Assembly (NCBI GenBank): GCA_000703065.1
Contig: JNLK01000001.1
Span: 2,068,001-2,132,000 of the forward strand
Source: Lachnospiraceae bacterium AC2029
GTDB taxonomy: Bacteria; Bacillota; Clostridia; Lachnospirales; Lachnospiraceae
Direction of reading: 5' to 3'
DNA length: 64,000 nt
Positions within the stretch are counted from its first letter, which is position 1; every line of letters begins with the position of its first letter. Of the stretch, positions 22,084 to 28,427 are shown in pieces. The notes under the pieces were generated by a model. It saw only the letters and a list, made by a program, of their open reading frames with translations. It did not search any database and had not been told where the DNA came from. Both the position numbers and the translations under genes were made by a program.

Positions 22084-22325
22084 ATGGATTTTGATACAAA
22101 TCAACATTCAGTGTTTTTGTTGCGCTATCACCTTATTATGTGTGTGAAATACAGAAACAAAGTAGCAGTCGGATCATTAAAAAGGAGTTTCCTCATATTC
22201 GCAAGTCTCTTTGGAAAGAAATGTTCTGGTCTCAGAGTTACTGTCTGATCACAACGGGTGGTGCGACGGTTGATGTGATCAAACAGTATATTCAATCACA
22301 GGGGGCGAAAGATCATGGCAAATAA
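22084..22325 (+). pseudogene. tnpA, IS200-type Y1 transposase with internal deletion
   Basis: From ATG 22084 the frame reads MDFDTNQHSVFLLRYHLIMC.., the normal TnpA start. Near 22155 it switches frame to SSSRIIKKEFPHIRKSLWKE.., the normal C-terminus with the catalytic Tyr (VIKQY). The middle, including the HUH metal site, is missing. The gene cannot make an active transposase, so mobility would need TnpA supplied by another copy. Confidence 0.85.
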
Positions 22326-23433
22326 GGCGTACGTTTACAGGATATATCCTGATCAGATGCAGGAACAACTGATGCAGAAAACCTTCGGTTGTTGCAGATT
22401 TGTATATAACAGCCTGCTTACTCTGCAGGAAGAACGATACAGATCAGGTGAAAAGCATCTCTCCAAAACGGAGGTGAATACATACTGTAACAAGGTGCTG
22501 AAGGATGCTTATCCATTTCTCAGAGAAGTGGATAAGTTTGCTCTTACCAACGCAATCTTTCATCTGGAAGAAGGATACCGCAGATTTTTTCTTCGTCTGG
22601 GGAAACACCCAAGGTATAAGAGCAGACATAAGGCAAAGTGGTCTTATACAACAAATTTTACCAATCACAATATTGAGATCGGTGAAAGATATATCAAGCT
22701 TCCGAAACTCGGAAAGGTAAAGGCGGTTATCCATCGCTTTCCGCAGGAAGGCTGGCAGGTCAAAACGGCAACGGTTACCCGGAACCGGGATAACAGCTAT
22801 CAGGTATCTGTGTTATTCTTTTACGAGGATCAGCAGATATCCATCCCCGTATCGTGCGGAAAAAGCATTGGTCTGGATTATAAGTCGGATGGCTTATATA
22901 CAGACAGCAACGGACATTTCTGTGATATGCCCCATTACTACCGAAAATCTGCCCCCATACTGGCAAAAGCACAGCGTAAGTTACGGCATAAGATAGCCGG
23001 AAGCCGGAATTATGATAAGCAGCAACGAAGGATTGCCCGTATTCATCGGCATATAGCAAATCAGCGAAAGGATTATCTACACCAAGAGTCAACTGCGATA
23101 GCCAAACGGTATGACATCGTTTGTGTGGAAGATCTGAATATGCGGGCGATGGCAAATCGAGGCTTTGGAAACGGCAAAGCTACACTGGATAATGGATATG
23201 GAATGTTTCTTAACATGCTGGAGTATAAGCTGCAGGATCAGGGGAAATGTTTCATCAAGGTCGGAAAGCATTTTCCTTCCAGTCAACTATGCCATCGATG
23301 TGGAAGGATTCATCCGGAAATGAAAGACCTTCGTATCCGGATCATGGATTGTACATGTGGATGCAAAGTCGATCGAGATTATAACGCGGCACTGAACATT
23401 AAAACAGAGGGACTGAAAATGATCGCGGCTTAG
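22315..23433 (+). CDS. tnpB: TnpB RNA-guided nuclease
   Basis: A 372-residue IS605-type TnpB. The RuvC pieces are present: SIGLDYKSDGL (Asp), CVEDLNMRAM (Glu), and DRDYNAALNIK (Asp). The zinc ribbon is CHRCG..CTCGC. The N-terminus YRIYPDQMQEQLMQKTFG and the FFLRLGKHPRYKSRH segment are typical. TnpB uses an RNA read from the element's right end (omega RNA) to cut DNA and keep the element in place. ATG 22315 overlaps the end of the tnpA remnant. It looks catalytically intact. Confidence 0.92.
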   Translation: MANKAYVYRIYPDQMQEQLMQKTFGCCRFVYNSLLTLQEERYRSGEKHLSKTEVNTYCNKVLKDAYPFLREVDKFALTNAIFHLEEGYRRFFLRLGKHPRYKSRHKAKWSYTTNFTNHNIEIGERYIKLPKLGKVKAVIHRFPQEGWQVKTATVTRNRDNSYQVSVLFFYEDQQISIPVSCGKSIGLDYKSDGLYTDSNGHFCDMPHYYRKSAPILAKAQRKLRHKIAGSRNYDKQQRRIARIHRHIANQRKDYLHQESTAIAKRYDIVCVEDLNMRAMANRGFGNGKATLDNGYGMFLNMLEYKLQDQGKCFIKVGKHFPSSQLCHRCGRIHPEMKDLRIRIMDCTCGCKVDRDYNAALNIKTEGLKMIAA

Positions 23434-23581: not shown

Positions 23582-24223
23582 ACCAGTAATGAAAAACTTG
23601 CCGAAGGAACTCCGGTGCTGCAGTATAAGGAACAATTGCTTGGAACGGGCAATTTTATCCCGGGAGGCTGGGCTATTGCATATGTTGGAGGGGAAGTGAA
23701 GGTTTATGTCATAGGGAAGACATACGACTGGGGAGTATCGGAGTATACGAGCAAAGTAGAGGTGTATCCGAATACGGATGACAACTATAAGGAAAAAATA
23801 GATACAGGAGATGTATATCAAGATGCGAAAGACGCCGATATTCGAAGTGCCGGCGATTTGGCTTCGTTTGCGATAGCCGGCCTTGCTTACGATGATGCTT
23901 ATAATGAGGTTTACCTGGAACTGGACAGTGGAAGAATAATCGCATGGGCAAAAGAAGGCGGTGAATTTGTAGATGGCGGAAGAGGGTTCGACAATTATGT
24001 TAAAGAGATAAATGATTCCTATAAATTAAAAGGCGGTGCCCCGCTTCTTCAGTATAAGGAGAAGATAATGTCGGATACGGAATTCATCCCCGGTGGTTGG
24101 GCGATTGCGTTCAAAAAAAACAAACCGGTTATCTATATTACAGACGGAACCATGACAGAAAATACCATTGACTCCGCTCCGAAGGTGGAGATGCAACCGG
24201 ATGTTGACTTCAATTATAGGTGA
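23582..24223 (+). pseudogene. 5'-truncated gene with duplicated domain, family unknown
   Basis: An open frame starts directly at the IS right end and runs to 24223. Two related units occur: GTPVLQYKEQLLGTGNFIPG and GAPLLQYKEKIMSDTEFIPG, each followed by GWAIA. The start codon is missing, so the IS probably cut or displaced the 5' part. The internal GTG at 23615 has no ribosome site. I do not recognise the family. Confidence 0.55.
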
Positions 24224-24242
24224 TCGCAATGAAAGAGGCCCC

Positions 24243-24311
24243 ACCGGGGCCTTGCCCCCCAAAGGGCCAACGGTTTTCAAGACCGCTCCCTCACCACCCG
24301 GACATGCAGCA
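24243..24311 (-). pseudogene. tRNA-Ser(UGA), 3' end missing
   Basis: The minus strand has a serine-type D-arm (TGTCCGGGTGGTGAGGGA) and anticodon arm GCGGT-CTTGAAA-ACCGT (anticodon UGA), then the start of a long variable arm. No T-arm (TTCGAAT) follows; instead a GC-rich palindrome (GGCCCC..GGGGCC) takes over. It is the last, decayed member of the tRNA array. Confidence 0.6.
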
Positions 24312-24315
24312 AGTA

Positions 24316-24379
24316 TGTGGCTGTGGGGATTCGAACCCCAATCATCAGATCCACAATCTGAGGTACTGACCTGTACCAT
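24316..24379 (-). tRNA. tRNA-His(GUG) body with replaced 5' acceptor strand
   Basis: The anticodon arm TCAGA-TTGTGGA-TCTGA (anticodon GUG), D-arm with GTAC/GTAC stem, T-arm TGGGG-TTCGAAT-CCCCA and 3' acceptor CAGCCAC plus A73 are all clear on the minus strand. The expected 5' strand GTGGCTG is absent. In its place is a perfect 10-bp hairpin CATGATTTCG-CTCG-CGAAATCATG running directly into the D-arm. No CCA is encoded. It may be a pseudogene, or the 5' piece may be supplied otherwise; a related GTGGCTGTTGTAC lies inverted at about 24500. Confidence 0.65.
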
Positions 24380-24515
24380 GATTTCGCGAGCGAAATCATG
24401 CCCGATTGCCCTAAGGGCAATCAGGTCGCCACTTCGTGGCGGTATCTCTCACTTCGTTCGAGACCACGGGGCCCTCCCTCACTTCGTTCGGGCAATCCCG
24501 TGGCTGTTGTACGAC
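24376..24515. repeat. Cluster of short palindromes
   Basis: Successive stem-loops: ATGATTTCG-CGAG-CGAAATCAT, GATTGCCC-TAAG-GGCAATC, GCCAC-TTC-GTGGC, and two copies of CTCACTTCGTTCG. Stems differ but sizes are similar. They separate tRNA-His from tRNA-Glu and resemble palindromes at 25036-25056, 25362-25385 and 29280-29350. Confidence 0.6.
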
Positions 24516-24523
24516 AGTCACAG

Positions 24524-24596
24524 TGATCCCAACGGGACTCGAACCCATATTTCCGGATTGAAAGCCCAGTGAATTGACCAGTTATTCGATGGGACC
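24524..24596 (-). tRNA. tRNA-Glu(UUC)
   Basis: Acceptor GGTCCCA/TGGGATC (one G-U), A73, D-stem GAAT/ATTC, anticodon loop CTTTCAA (anticodon UUC), T-loop TTCGAGT. No CCA encoded. Well formed. Confidence 0.85.
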
Positions 24597-24601
24597 ATGT
24601 G

Positions 24602-24672
24602 TAACGGTTATGGGACTCGAACCCACATCTTCCGGCTGAGAACCGGAGATCCTACCATTAGACGAAACCGCC
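24602..24672 (-). tRNA. tRNA-Glu(CUC)
   Basis: Acceptor GGCGGTT/AACCGTT with two terminal G-U pairs, anticodon arm TCCGG-TTCTCAG-CCGGA (anticodon CUC), T-arm with TTCGAGT. 5 bases from tRNA-Glu(UUC). No CCA encoded. Confidence 0.85.
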
Positions 24673-24687
24673 ATTTTGGGGTAAACC

Positions 24688-24912
24688 TTATCCTCGGTTT
24701 ACCCGAATGATATCGTTGACCGTGCAGCCGAACAGATCTGCCACGATGACCATGTTGTCGATCGTGGGCATAGTATCACCACGGAACCATTTGAAGATCG
24801 CCTGCGGAGTACCAAAGCCGCAGGCTTTCTGAATATCTGCGGTAGTCATCTGTCTGGCTTTCATCATGTTCTTGATGTTTGCGCCGGTCGCTTTTGCATT
24901 GATCGTTACCAT
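24688..24912 (-). CDS. Small XRE-family helix-turn-helix protein
   Basis: A 74-residue HTH domain: GANIKNMMKARQMTTADIQKA, then GFGTPQAIFKWFRGDTMPTIDN and LFGCTVNDIIRV. ATG 24912 follows AAGGAGGAATACAG, much better than the upstream in-frame ATG at 24972, which lies inside tRNA-Leu. It sits between tRNA-Leu and tRNA-Glu, transcribed with the array, and may regulate array transcription. Confidence 0.8.
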   Translation of the reverse strand: MVTINAKATGANIKNMMKARQMTTADIQKACGFGTPQAIFKWFRGDTMPTIDNMVIVADLFGCTVNDIIRVNRG

Positions 24913-24945
24913 ATCTGTATTCCTCCTTCCTTTCATTTTGGGACT

Positions 24946-25031
24946 TACCCTCGACAGGGATCGAACCCGCAACAGGCTTTCGCCACCCTGCAGCCTGAGT
25001 GCAGTGCCTTTACCAGTTTGACCACACGGAC
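24946..25031 (-). tRNA. tRNA-Leu(CAG)
   Basis: A class II tRNA of 86 bases. Anticodon arm CTGCA-CTCAGGC-TGCAG (anticodon CAG), D-arm GTCAAACTGGTAAAGGC, long variable arm with GGC..GCC, T-loop TTCGATC, A73. The acceptor GTCCGTG/CGAGGGT has one G-A mismatch and three G-U pairs, so it is weak. No CCA encoded. Confidence 0.75.
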
Positions 25032-25062
25032 AGTGTCGAAAATGCCTTCAGGCATGCAATAG

Positions 25063-25090
25063 AAAAAGGGAATGCCAGTGCGGCATTCCC
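25063..25090 (-). terminator. Intrinsic terminator inside the array
   Basis: On the minus strand GGGAATGCC (25090-25082) pairs with GGCATTCCC (25076-25068), then TTTTT. It lies just before tRNA-Leu, so read-through or a separate promoter is needed for the downstream tRNAs. Confidence 0.75.
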
Positions 25091-25187
25091 CGTTCAAGAT
25101 CCGTAGTCGGATCCTGCTCATAAAATACCGCTCATGCATTAAGCACAAGCGGTAATCTCTTTATCTGGACCTTATTCCACTCATATC

Positions 25188-25280
25188 TTAATGCATAACA
25201 ATTATTCCTTCGCCGGACTCTGATTCCGAACTAAGGAGAAGATATTCGCTATGCAGATACAAGTTTCTAAAAGCGTTCAT
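25188..25280 (-). CDS. 30-residue ORF with own promoter
   Basis: ATG 25280 follows GAAAGGAACC and lies 30 bases past a strong minus-strand promoter. The product is MNAFRNLYLHSEYLLLSSES.. with an acidic tail. A hairpin ACCGCT..AGCGGT with ATTTTAT follows at about 25130-25157. It could be a micropeptide, a leader or a small RNA. Confidence 0.4.
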   Translation of the reverse strand: MNAFRNLYLHSEYLLLSSESESGEGIIVMH

Positions 25281-25309
25281 TGTTTTGGTTCCTTTCATTT
25301 GATACTTCG

Positions 25310-25337
25310 ATTATAACAGATTCTCTCCTGATGTAAA
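25310..25337 (-). promoter_or_regulatory. Promoter inside the tRNA array
   Basis: Minus strand TTTACA (25337-25332), 16-base spacer, TATAAT (25315-25310). It can drive the small ORF and, past the terminator, tRNA-Leu, the XRE gene and the last tRNAs. Confidence 0.75.
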
Positions 25338-25415
25338 GTAGCCTGTAGGTATAGGTTCCGAAATGCCATCAGGCATTTCGAGAACCGTACGCGCCCTGCT
25401 CCGAAGTAGCAGCCC

Positions 25416-26624
25416 TCACTCCGATGCCTTAAAGTTGTAGATGGGCTTCAGGATATCGATCACATCTACAGACTCACGAACTACATCAATGATATCCTCC
25501 AGTGACTTGTACGCCATCGGCGCTTCATCCAGAGTGGCTTCGTTTACGGAAGTGGTGTAGATTCCTTTCATGGTCTCCATGTATTCTTTCATGGACAGAG
25601 TGTTCTTTGCCTTTGTTCGGGACATGAGACGTCCTGCACCGTGGGGAGCGGAATAGTTCCATTCAGCATTTCCCTTACCGACTGCCAGGATGCTTCCATC
25701 ACGCATGTTGATCGGGATCAGAACACGCTCTCCGGCATGGGCGGCAATCGCACCCTTACGCAGGATCCGTTCCTCTGTGTCGATATAGTTGTGGATCGTG
25801 TGAAATGCGTCGCCGGCTGTCAGACCGGTCCGATCCAGCAGAACCTCCGCCATTTTCTCCCGGTTCTTTCTCGCAAATCTCTGGCAGATCTCTACATCAT
25901 GCAGATAGTTCTCCAGATATTTACCGCTGAGATAGCAGAGATCCTCCGGGATGTCCGGTTGGAGAGTTTCCTTCTTCCATTTCAGTTCCTTCAGTGCGTT
26001 CTGAATTTCGCTTCTTCGACCCTGTTCCTTATAGGTGTGGATGATTTCTTCTCTGGCTTCCAGGTACTCACCGATTCCACGGTTCAGATCGATGGCAAGC
26101 TGCTGGTACAGCTCAGCCACCTGCTTTCCAAGGTTACGGCTCCCACTGTGGATCACCAGATATTTGGTTCCATCTTCGGCAACATCGATTTCGATGAAAT
26201 GATTTCCACCGCCTAAAGTACCGAGGCTTCGCTCAATCCATCTGGTGTTCTTCAGATCCCGGTAGCAGTAGAGTTCTTCCAGATCAAACCGCTCCTGTCG
26301 TCCTTCCCAGATGTTTCGTCCGGACGGTACGTAGTGTGCGGCTTCATCGAACTTCTCCAGATCAATCTCAACCTTACCAAGATTTACCGTGTACATACCG
26401 CAGCCGATGTCAACGCCGACCACATTTGGAACAGCCTTATCCACAATGGTCATGGTTGTTCCGATGGTGCAACCTTTTCCGGCGTGAACATCCGGCATGA
26501 TGCGGACCTTCGCACCTGCAGTGAATTCATAATCGCACATTCGACGGATCTGCTCGATGGCTTCGTCCTCAACAACCTTCGCATAGCAGATGGCTGTGCA
26601 GACCTTTCCTTTGATTTCAAACAT
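25416..26624 (-). CDS. rtcB: RtcB RNA ligase
   Basis: A 402-residue tRNA-splicing/repair ligase. Metal and GMP-binding motifs are present: MPDVHAGKGCTIGTT, GVDIGCGMYTV, GGGNHFIEID, HSGSRNLGKQ, and the guanylylated His in APHGAGRLMSR. RtcB joins 2',3'-cyclic phosphate or 3'-phosphate ends to 5'-OH ends with GTP and Mn. ATG 26624 follows GGAGG; the frame continues upstream into tRNA-Lys but without sense. It lies within a minus-strand tRNA array, 69 bases after tRNA-Lys, so it is likely to act on the array's tRNAs. No archease gene is seen. Length is that of the shorter bacterial RtcB type. Confidence 0.93.
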   Translation of the reverse strand: MFEIKGKVCTAICYAKVVEDEAIEQIRRMCDYEFTAGAKVRIMPDVHAGKGCTIGTTMTIVDKAVPNVVGVDIGCGMYTVNLGKVEIDLEKFDEAAHYVPSGRNIWEGRQERFDLEELYCYRDLKNTRWIERSLGTLGGGNHFIEIDVAEDGTKYLVIHSGSRNLGKQVAELYQQLAIDLNRGIGEYLEAREEIIHTYKEQGRRSEIQNALKELKWKKETLQPDIPEDLCYLSGKYLENYLHDVEICQRFARKNREKMAEVLLDRTGLTAGDAFHTIHNYIDTEERILRKGAIAAHAGERVLIPINMRDGSILAVGKGNAEWNYSAPHGAGRLMSRTKAKNTLSMKEYMETMKGIYTTSVNEATLDEAPMAYKSLEDIIDVVRESVDVIDILKPIYNFKASE

Positions 26625-26693
26625 TGTTTTTTCCTCCATAGCAGTTATCAGATCCTTCCACGACAGATTTCCTGTTTCGGGGAAGATGCTGCT

Positions 26694-26765
26694 TGGGTAT
26701 GACGGGACTCGAACCCACATTGTCGATATTAAAAGTATCGTGTACTTCCATTATACTACATACCC
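26694..26765 (-). tRNA. tRNA-Lys(UUU)
   Basis: Perfect acceptor GGGTATG/CATACCC, D-stem GTA/TAC, anticodon arm CGATA-CTTTTAA-TATCG (anticodon UUU), T-loop TTCGAGT, A73, no CCA. Confidence 0.9.
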
Positions 26766-26768
26766 GGA

Positions 26769-26845
26769 TTGCAGCAATGGGGATCGAACCCATATTTCCT
26801 GAGTCAGAGTCAGGCGTGCTACCGTTACACCATTCGGCTATAGCA
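26769..26845 (-). tRNA. tRNA-Gln(CUG), irregular acceptor
   Basis: Anticodon arm CCTGA-CTCTGAC-TCAGG (anticodon CUG) and T-arm ATGGG-TTCGATC-CCCAT are clear. The 3' acceptor TGCTGCA pairs only in part with a 5' TGCTATA, which lies five bases farther from the D-arm than normal; the strand at the normal spacing (TAGCCGA) does not pair. It directly abuts the preceding tRNA-Gln. Confidence 0.6.
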
Positions 26846-26915
26846 GATGCCGAGAGATTCGAACTCGGTCTACAGGGGTCAAAGTCCTGTGTACTGACCG
26901 GATATACTATGCCCC
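26846..26915 (-). tRNA. tRNA-Gln(UUG), irregular acceptor and T-arm
   Basis: Anticodon loop CTTTGAC (anticodon UUG) in a stem with one A-C mismatch. The 5' strand GGGGCAT has no partner at the 3' side (GGCATC..). The T-arm is CCGAG-TTCGAATCT-CTCGG with a 9-base loop, or a normal loop with two mismatches. It runs into tRNA-Gln(CUG) with no spacer. It may be decayed. Confidence 0.5.
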
Positions 26916-26922
26916 GGAAAAG

Positions 26923-26996
26923 TGGAAAGGGAAGGAATCGGACCTCCGACGCGCAGGGCTTCAACCTGCCGCTCTACCTGACTGAGCTACCTTTCC
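26923..26996 (-). tRNA. tRNA-Phe(GAA)
   Basis: Perfect acceptor GGAAAGG/CCTTTCC, D-arm GCTCAGTCAGGTAGAGC, anticodon arm GCAGG-TTGAAGC-CCTGC (anticodon GAA), A73. The T-loop reads TCCGATT, with C in place of the usual T55. Confidence 0.88.
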
Positions 26997-27025
26997 CCAA
27001 TTGATCAATTCCTGCTCGATATACA

Positions 27026-27060
27026 CAAAAAGCCACCTGTCCGGCATCAGACAGGTGGCT
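27026..27060 (-). terminator. Intrinsic terminator upstream of tRNA-Phe
   Basis: On the minus strand AGCCACCTGTC pairs with GACAGGTGGCT across an 8-base loop, then TTTTTGTG. It would end transcripts coming from the Arg-Gly-Asp-Met part of the array. Confidence 0.85.
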
Positions 27061-27084
27061 ATGAACGAAGGAGTATCTTATAAC

Positions 27085-27210
27085 CTACATTTCGCATGAT
27101 CCACGTAATCTGACAAGGACATCACAAGGAAACCAGTTTTTCTGAATGCAGAACCAAAACTGGATTCTCTTTATCGAATTCTTTTCTCTTGTCAGAACTG
27201 TAGATCGCAT
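27085..27210 (-). CDS. 41-residue ORF of doubtful status
   Basis: ATG 27210 is preceded by AAAGGAAAAACAAG, a weak ribosome site. The product (starts MRSTVLTREKNSIKRIQFWF) has no recognised domain. It fills the 175-base gap between the split tRNA-Met and the terminator at 27060. Confidence 0.3.
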   Translation of the reverse strand: MRSTVLTREKNSIKRIQFWFCIQKNWFPCDVLVRLRGSCEM

Positions 27211-27240
27211 TTCTTGTTTTTCCTTTCTTTCTTGATGGAG

Positions 27241-27400
27241 TAGCGGGAGAGGGATTTGAACCCCCAACCTCCGGGGTATGGGCCCGGCTATCTGCCTCTC
27301 GCACTTTGTGCTCGAGGAGGACACTCGTCAAGGTATCTGTCATCCGTGCAAGCACGGGACAGATACTTTGACTCGTTTTGCCAATTGATAATATCCCGCG
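27241..27400 (-). tRNA. tRNA-Met(CAU), initiator-like, split by 86-base insertion in D-loop
   Basis: Minus-strand 5' part (27400-27379): CGCGGGA acceptor, TA, D-stem TTATC, and D-loop AATTGGCA. The 3' part (27292-27241) has D-stem GATAG, anticodon arm CCGGG-CCCATAC-CCCGG (anticodon CAU), T-arm with TTCAAAT, and acceptor TCCCGCT plus A. The two parts together give a normal 74-base tRNA: six acceptor pairs, five D-stem pairs and canonical D-loop GG. The C1xU72 mismatch and the three G-C pairs at 29-31/39-41 are initiator features. Between them lie 86 bases (27378-27293) forming a long hairpin (27372-27352 with 27349-27327) and a second one. GGCA occurs at both junctions. It needs splicing to function, or it is an inactivated gene. 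Confidence 0.75.
27293..27378 (-). other. 86-base structured insertion in tRNA-Met D-loop
   Basis: Contains GTCAA, GTATCTGTC and CCGTGC pairing in order with GCACGG, GACAGATAC and TTGAC around a two-base loop, then CCTC-GA-GCAC-AAA-GTGC-GA-GAGG. There is no ORF, no group I core of normal size, and the site is not the anticodon loop. GGCA is repeated at both edges, so a 4-base shift in the boundary is possible. It may be an intron or an inserted palindromic element. Confidence 0.65.
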
Positions 27401-27408
27401 ATAGGAAA

Positions 27409-27481
27409 CGACCATGTGGGGAATCGAACCCCAACCCCCAGAGAGACAATCTGGTACGCTAAACCGTTACGCCACACAGCC
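27409..27481 (-). tRNA. tRNA-Asp(GUC)
   Basis: Acceptor GGCTGTG/CATGGTC pairs fully with three G-U pairs; anticodon arm CCAGA-TTGTCTC-TCTGG (anticodon GUC); T-arm TGGGG-TTCGATT-CCCCA; G73. It ends 8 bases before the split tRNA-Met. Confidence 0.85.
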
Positions 27482-27587
27482 ATATGTGTGATTGTTTTTG
27501 CTGTCGGTACAATCCATAAACCTCACCGGCACAGCCGCCATAGCGGTATGCCATAACCTGTCTGTTCAGGTATTACTCCGGTATTTG

Positions 27588-27660
27588 AGCAAGTAACGAG
27601 ATTCGAACTCGTGTCTTATCGTTGGAAGCGATATATTCTGACCTGTTGAACTATACCTGC
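27588..27660 (-). tRNA. tRNA-Gly(UCC)
   Basis: Acceptor GCAGGTA/TACTTGC, anticodon loop CTTCCAA (anticodon UCC), T-arm ACGAG-TTCGAAT-CTCGT, U73 as usual for glycine. The 106 bases between it and tRNA-Asp hold only a small CCGCTATGGCGG palindrome. Confidence 0.88.
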
Positions 27661-27729
27661 AGGACGGATGAGAGAAGTGCCTGTTTCCCTCATCCTATAT
27701 TGTTTTAATGATCAGCCGAAGCTGATGTG

Positions 27730-27801
27730 CAGACCATACAGGAGTCGAACCTGTGTCTCATCGTTCGTAGCGATGTATACTTTCCGTTATACGAATGGTC
27801 T
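27730..27801 (-). tRNA. tRNA-Arg(ACG)
   Basis: Acceptor AGACCAT/ATGGTCT, anticodon arm CATCG-CTACGAA-CGATG (anticodon ACG), T-arm ACAGG-TTCGACT-CCTGT, G73, no CCA. First tRNA of the array. Confidence 0.88.
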
Positions 27802-27807
27802 AAACGT

Positions 27808-27847
27808 AAAAAACCGTCTGTGTTCGGATTCATTCCGAGACAGACGG
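27808..27847 (-). terminator. Intrinsic terminator before tRNA-Arg
   Basis: Minus-strand CCGTCTGT pairs with ACAGACGG, followed by TTTTTT. It lies between the 60-residue ORF and tRNA-Arg, so tRNA transcription depends on read-through or an unseen promoter. Confidence 0.75.
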
Positions 27848-27881
27848 CTTTACGCATTATTACAGTATTACTGTATAATTC

Positions 27882-28064
27882 TCACGTTCGTCTGTACCTG
27901 GAATGATCCCGGATATCCCAATTTGTCCTCTGATCTTTGTAATCATCAATGCCTTCAGCTATTGCGAGCTGGTCGGCCGGGGCTGCGAAAAAGCGCACGA
28001 AGGTAAACCCACAAGCTGCGGGCTTCTGAATGGTGTTCATTCTGTTCGTCATTATGCTTCTCAT
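27882..28064 (-). CDS. 60-residue protein heading the tRNA array, unknown
   Basis: ATG 28064 follows AAGGAAAAG at proper spacing, about 100 bases past a strong promoter. The sequence MRSIMTNRMNTIQKPAACGF.. continues with an aromatic/Ala stretch and a polar, charged tail (IDDYKDQRTNWDIRDHSRY). No family is recognised. It could be a small regulatory protein of the array or a peptide. Confidence 0.5.
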   Translation of the reverse strand: MRSIMTNRMNTIQKPAACGFTFVRFFAAPADQLAIAEGIDDYKDQRTNWDIRDHSRYRRT

Positions 28065-28172
28065 TTGCTTTTCCTTACCTCATTTCTGAACGTTTGGGTT
28101 TTGATTCTAAAAAATGCCCATGTCTCCATTTGGGCATACAAAATGGAGAGACAGGCACTTCTCTCATGGAGT

Positions 28173-28201
28173 ATAGTATCACCATGTCGGATGAATGTCA
28201 A
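28173..28201 (-). promoter_or_regulatory. Strong promoter of the tRNA array
   Basis: Minus strand TTGACA (28201-28196), 17-base spacer, TACTAT (28178-28173). It reads toward the 60-residue ORF and the array. Confidence 0.75.
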
Positions 28202-28309
28202 CATTTTTTTGAAAATTTTTTTGAACCTTTTTTCGACATGGTTCCGGCTTGATCCGGTATGTCCGGCATGGTGTGCCAATATGAAACGAGCTTTTTCACG
28301 TATCCATGA

Positions 28310-28315
28310 TATAAT
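28310..28315 (+). promoter_or_regulatory. Promoter -10
   Basis: TATAAT at 28310-28315, about 110 bases before the membrane protein gene; the -35 is weak. Confidence 0.45.
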
Positions 28316-28427
28316 GACTACTGTCCGGTTCTGCCGCATTTTCAAATTCCATTTACCGGGAAACAGTGTTATGATGAATCAGGATGGATCGGGATTCACA
28401 GTATTTCTTATCGGCGAGTGATTTGAT

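Follow-up and report, generated by a model that had tools for sequence, protein, structure and literature searches.

In Lachnospiraceae bacterium AC2029, the D-loop of an initiator-like tRNA-Met(CAU) gene is interrupted by 86 bases. They are very probably a non-autonomous palindromic element that came in by insertion, the gene being part of a mobile tRNA array in decay. The host genome is a single contig of 3.86 Mb, and the window, i.e., the whole stretch of DNA analysed, covers 64,000 nucleotides of it (C1:2068001-2132000). The insertion is supported by empty sites, the dispersal of the repeat family, the presence of six split tRNAs, and an uninterrupted initiator-like tRNA elsewhere. The preliminary description of the locus had proposed that the tRNA is spliced in the bacterium, by cleavage followed by ligation with RtcB, with an inserted palindromic element as the fallback, and it is the fallback that the family dispersal and the empty sites bear out.

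The split gene lies on the minus strand. Its 22-nt 5′ part (27379..27400) holds the 5′ strands of the acceptor and D-stems and the D-loop up to GGCA. It is followed by the 86-nt palindromic insert (27293..27378), matched by the repeat model R1 described below at 27295-27383 with 84 bits, and by the 52-nt 3′ part (27241..27292), which completes the joined cloverleaf and is the only half scored by Rfam (RF00005, 27241-27305, 30.0 bits). ARAGORN found no tRNA in the uncut 27241-27400, with the anticodon-intron option on or off, while removal of the 86 bases resulted in a tRNA-Met(CAT) cloverleaf with D- and T-arms; the description of an initiator-like tRNA broken in its D-loop by structured bases thus holds. 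As described, the joined molecule has six acceptor pairs and C1xU72, and its anticodon stem, CCGGG/CCCGG, places three G-C pairs (GGG/CCC) next to the loop. Five D-stem pairs, as had been stated, can be read (TTATC/GATAG, one being U-G), but ARAGORN draws four and reports 75 bases for the 74 joined. When 86 bases were deleted at random 6000 times in the window, only one deletion gave a junction-spanning tRNA, and this deletion, 27300-27385, is the split site itself. The 160 bases fold with -69.2 kcal/mol (z = -6.2), and the fold contains the long hairpin and the second, shorter one that had been described for the insert. GGCA was indeed found at both junctions, so the exact ends of the insert are ambiguous by this 4-nt repeat; as a short target duplication it amounts to at best four bases and is equally ambiguous.

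The surrounding decayed tRNA array (24311..27801, minus strand) contains eight tRNAs recognised by ARAGORN, two split tRNAs, and others that are broken. Among the signs of decay are a Gln(TTG) copy scoring 26.6 bits, below the Rfam cut-off, and the tRNA-Leu at 24945-25032 (minus strand), which has a low Rfam score of 32.7 bits and reads as if two Leu genes of the array had fused. The window also contains a truncated tRNA-Ser(TGA) 5′ part followed by the start of a variable-arm insert also seen in a second array; since it has no 3′ half, it is not counted among the six split tRNAs. Within the array lies rtcB (25416..26624, minus strand; PF01139, 195.6 bits), which shares the strand of the split tRNA-Met and has its start at 26624, about 617 bases downstream of it, in agreement with the roughly 600 bases given earlier. 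The array also carries a small Cro/C1-type HTH gene (24688..24912, minus strand; PF01381/PF13443). A close counterpart is the array of genome G019 (L064 in its named copy, Eubacterium sp. RGIG6897), with RtcB (93% identical), the HTH gene (95% identical; 97% in a second array of G019), and 23 intact tRNAs. HTH relatives of 65% identity occur on the viral contigs L204 and L205. The best reading of the window array is that it is a mobile, phage- or plasmid-type array decaying in a Lachnospiraceae-type chromosome.

Several other features of the neighbourhood were observed. A 41-aa reading frame (27085-27210, minus strand), followed by a terminator-like hairpin, lies between tRNA-Met and tRNA-Phe; the viral contigs L204/L205 have a frame at the matching place, and a K-N-W-F-x-C motif is common to them by eye. 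An IS200/IS605-type tnpB (22128-23433, plus strand), preceded by a partial Y1_Tnp match, lies beside the 3′ end of the array. Further rtcB matches are found in the genome at C1:791938-793143 (84%), where no tRNA was found at the locus, and at C1:803865-804989 (about 42-50%), along with a partial match at C1:771076-771363 (45%). The nearest RtcBs among named genomes belong mostly to Lachnospiraceae, several of them from rumens. The link between RtcB and tRNA arrays is not general, because most RtcB loci sampled in the genus (L152-L154 and L156-L174) are without an ARAGORN tRNA, whereas L155 has three and L151, the G019 array, 23.

The six split tRNAs were found among 20 target loci, and all are located in two arrays of the host genome. 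The survey gave 18 candidate places, of which the six with both halves matching one tRNA type were kept; the other 12, single-reference matches judged without individual reading to bridge neighbouring tRNAs, were dropped (L064, L081, two in L090, three in L204, two in L205, L391, L392, and window 27240-27659). The second array (L002/L144, C1:2.607 Mb) is a decaying copy that carries the HTH gene, and its split tRNAs are Leu(CAA), His, Ser(TGA), and Tyr, the anticodon loop of Ser(TGA) being changed as well. In the window the second split gene is tRNA-His(GTG) on the minus strand. Its 5′ part (24507..24522) was delimited by alignment with the uninterrupted tRNA-His of L377, L064, L389, and L204, and its 3′ part (24315..24372) gives 37.3 bits with RF00005 at 24324-24378. 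Between them, in the D-loop, lies a 134-nt multi-hairpin insert (24373..24506, ends approximate) related to the His insert of the second array. D-loops hold five of the six inserts and a variable arm the sixth; stems and anticodon loops are free of them. This bias, like the D-loop position of both strong copies of the tRNA-Met insert family in the host genome, could stem from the sequence that is targeted, from survival of those insertions that do least damage, or from chance; six cases, drawn from two related arrays that have His in common, are too few to tell.

Two repeat families are involved. The Tyr insert of the second array belongs to the family of the tRNA-Met insert (74% identity over 93 bases), while the His insert belongs to a different one. 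The second-array His insert matches 15 more places in the genome outside the arrays, in eight clusters (E < 1e-7), some of them between chromosomal tRNA genes (L442, L444). Some of these repeats are tandem and outside tRNAs, with unit joints reading GGTACAA, and the GTACAA of these joints also precedes the insert in tRNA-His. Their hairpins carry GAA/GTA-type triloops (window 24373-24506; L439, L440, L443), and in the His copies of the two arrays the inner hairpins differ yet remain palindromic.

Comparison of the same tRNAs in related arrays revealed empty sites. In the RtcB-bearing array of G019 the tRNA-Met is uninterrupted, with 22 of 22 bases identical to the 5′ part in the window and 84% identity over 56 bases to the 3′ part, and the four bases GGCA belong to both matches. 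The viral contigs L204 and L205 carry homologous arrays of 26 tRNAs, again with the HTH relative and an uninterrupted tRNA-Met. A BLAST search over 397 genomes of the family, scoring at most two candidates per genome, gave no further filled tRNA-Met among the matches listed. Empty sites were likewise found for tRNA-Tyr (L064, L377), tRNA-His (L064, L377, L389, L204), and tRNA-Leu(CAA) (L377, L064, L390), and tRNA-Ser is uninterrupted in L377, L064, and L390; such empty sites in relatives are a mark of dispersed palindromic repeats. Because tRNA-Met is uninterrupted in both the G019 and the viral-contig arrays, its insert is most simply read, on sequence comparison, as a recent gain in a mobile array.

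In Rfam, the tRNA-Met insert resembles RF01699 Clostridiales-1 (37.1 bits, E = 1.1e-5) without reaching the gathering score of 48, and the tRNA-Tyr copy likewise stays below it with 33.4 bits. RF01699 itself occurs in 30 of 61 genomes (own included), often in several copies per genome, and in none of 14 controls; the four copies read in the host genome are longer, have multiple hairpins, and do not lie in tRNAs called by ARAGORN. A BLAST search of the host genome with the 160-base stretch found only two copies, both in tRNAs, which looked intron-like, an impression overturned by searches with model R1 and by rejoining the flanks. R1 was built from eight copies (A1), picked from the 14 places in sampled loci that matched a pattern centred on GCTTGC, some of the others resembling coding sequence. 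In the host genome it gave two strong matches, 91 and 84 bits, both in tRNA D-loops, and the next at 42 bits; at E <= 1 there were 20 matches, of which four were inspected (the two in tRNAs, L438/L300, and L301) and the other 16 are weak. At E <= 1e-4, R1 was found in 45 of 120 genomes of the family, own included. The sampled loci gave 44 matches, of which two weak ones in L086 (28.3 and 27.4 bits) were left out. When the flanks of the remaining 42 copies were rejoined, ARAGORN recognised a tRNA in only two, those of the window and L144. These copies come from loci chosen mostly among the best-scoring R1 rows and are not independent, several being from single genomes and five being near-identical copies in G151, where a longer unit sits at different sites. 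The dispersal outside tRNAs therefore holds at the level of the family in related genomes, where several copies lie outside the host gene; within the host genome alone such copies are weak (at most 42 bits), and the close ones are both in tRNA D-loops. Across the family, 93.4% of the cells are paired, 23 of 27 pairs show double changes, and none of 500 shuffles was as high, in an alignment of 44 rows (40 distinct, the two from L086 included) that is fitted to the model and so leans towards structure. We conclude from these comparisons that the repeat family of the tRNA-Met insert is dispersed and structured and consists of sub-threshold relatives of Clostridiales-1.

Most copies share a docking site. 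Among those examined (L407-L437, L286, L031, L086), 25 of 42 lie directly behind a terminator-like site in one orientation, beginning 7-14 bases downstream of the first base of a T-run that follows a stable hairpin. The same was true for 68 of 20,800 random positions (0.3%) in 26 of the loci, and the opposite side of the elements gave 0 of 42; the criterion, a T-run starting 7-14 bases upstream and a 34-base hairpin of <= -8 kcal/mol, was set after the copies had been read. By reading, the TTTTGTGT with which several G173 copies begin has its complement, ACACAAAA, at their end. The consensus of the left edge, GTAGGCAACGAG, resembles GGCA and GGTAGC, the tRNA sequences before the inserts, and both are native to the empty sites, from which we infer insertion at short sequences matching the end of the element. 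Most likely, then, the element would insert where the target matches its own end, GGCA in tRNA-Met and GGTAGC in tRNA-Tyr, and the second family would do so at GTACAA in tRNA-His. Transposition might proceed via single-stranded hairpin intermediates handled by a host enzyme, e.g., a Y1/HUH transposase, and the split tRNA would have lost its function. As to the enzyme, the genome gives 11 Y1_Tnp matches; at the one candidate locus read (252 aa, C1:370206), which was considered as a RAYT link, the flanking palindromes are of the GGGACGGTTCTGATC type and not the tRNA-Met element, so no mobilising enzyme is named.

Several observations are not readily accommodated by the insertion of a mobile repeat. 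The strong copies in the host genome (91 and 84 bits) both sit in tRNA D-loops, as do five of the six inserts, and neither stems nor anticodon loops contain any. A target duplication would be ambiguous and no longer than four bases, and no mobilising enzyme has been linked to the element from the one Y1_Tnp locus read. Moreover, the tRNA-Met halves pair fully, and compared to G019 the T-stem has pair-preserving changes at two pairs; for this reason the split tRNA-Met may be functional. One way would be a true bacterial intron, with a nuclease cutting at both junctions and the array RtcB joining the exons. The cloverleaf that is intact once the 86 bases are removed, the RtcB in the array (with two further rtcB genes and a partial match in the genome), and the preference for D-loops agree with it. 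However, the insert is absent from the sister array that carries the same RtcB, the family lies mostly outside tRNAs among the 42 copies examined, and the second array has four split tRNAs but no rtcB: at E <= 1, RtcB had no tblastn match in its 18 kb L144 locus, and the rtcB of L143 is found by the same search. The splicing endonuclease family of the EndA type (PF01974) had no match in the host genome, although the control search detected it in four archaea among 14 genomes, and the tRNA-Ser(TGA) of the second array has an altered anticodon loop in addition to its insert. We therefore consider such an intron extremely unlikely, and the splicing originally proposed is not supported by the comparison with the sister and second arrays. 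In the minimum-energy fold, no bulge-helix-bulge was seen by eye at the junctions. No group I or II intron family was among the Rfam matches of the window, or of 24000-28400 at E <= 1, and the insert has only 86 bases. RtcB is also present in the array of a relative without inserts, and the array RtcB probably serves RNA repair and not splicing of the tRNA-Met insert.

It is also very improbable that the tRNA is used unspliced, with the insert as an extended D-loop domain folding on its own. The D-loop and variable arm are the places least harmful to the fold, and the acceptor, anticodon, and T stems are still paired in tRNA-Met, but the minimum-energy fold of the 160 bases is without a D-stem and other tRNAs of the array are broken. 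In addition, the genome has an intact initiator-like tRNA-Met with C1xU72 and GGG/CCC at C1:239271, clustered with ordinary tRNAs, and can therefore probably dispense with the split copy. The broader idea that D-loops are a second safe harbour besides terminators, where palindromes are tolerated through removal in pre-tRNA processing (nuclease and RtcB) or as an autonomous extra domain, is one to which we give little credence. The strong covariation of the insert stems across the family could mean an RNA function, and the element might be a small RNA akin to Clostridiales-1 and functional as such, for which the tRNA gene is a landing site or an expression aid, a view compatible with mobile insertion. 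It accords with the pairing statistics over 40 distinct rows and with the finding that 25 of 42 copies sit behind terminators at a set position and in one orientation. On the other hand, palindrome turnover at the DNA level would keep the pairing too, the tRNA copies appear by reading to be without the outer TTTTGTGT...ACACAAAA arms of some G173 copies, and no paper on the function of RF01699 was found, the excerpt of PMC2864571 giving it as a table entry. A small-RNA role is therefore possible but unlikely.

Insertion of a palindromic repeat removes a tempting candidate for RtcB-dependent tRNA splicing in bacteria and shows how such candidates originate, namely when dispersed repeats with hairpins invade tRNA arrays in which the genes are densely packed. 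A further outcome is a strongly covarying repeat family, docked behind terminator-like sites in 25 of 42 copies; searches of open-licence literature gave no description of the insert or of the R1 family.

The insert shares with RF01699 the order of two hairpins, the GTGCTTGCAC first loop, and the GAGCA...TGCGA second stem, but is shorter and scores 37.1 bits against the gathering score of 48. Like REP/REPIN, BOX, RUP, and MITE-like elements, the family is short, palindromic, without a gene of its own, dispersed, and sometimes tandem. It differs from them in that 25 of 42 copies are docked in one orientation behind terminator-like sites and that no partner transposase was identified (one Y1_Tnp locus of 11 read). 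The tRNA introns of archaea and eukaryotes are cleaved by EndA/TSEN, with RtcB as ligase. The likeness to these introns lies in a tRNA gene broken by a structured insert, here with RtcB nearby; unlike them, the insert is present or absent between close relatives, its family is mostly outside tRNAs, and no EndA was found. The array itself is reminiscent of the trn operon of Anabaena, in which, according to excerpts of PMC10272220, 26 tRNAs are encoded on a megaplasmid and rtcB is under the same repressor, TrcR, so that in both cases a large tRNA array is tied to RtcB and a DNA-binding regulator. According to the same source, the Anabaena rtcB lies on the chromosome and TrcR belongs to the RHH lineage, whereas in the window rtcB and a Cro/C1-type HTH gene lie inside the array.
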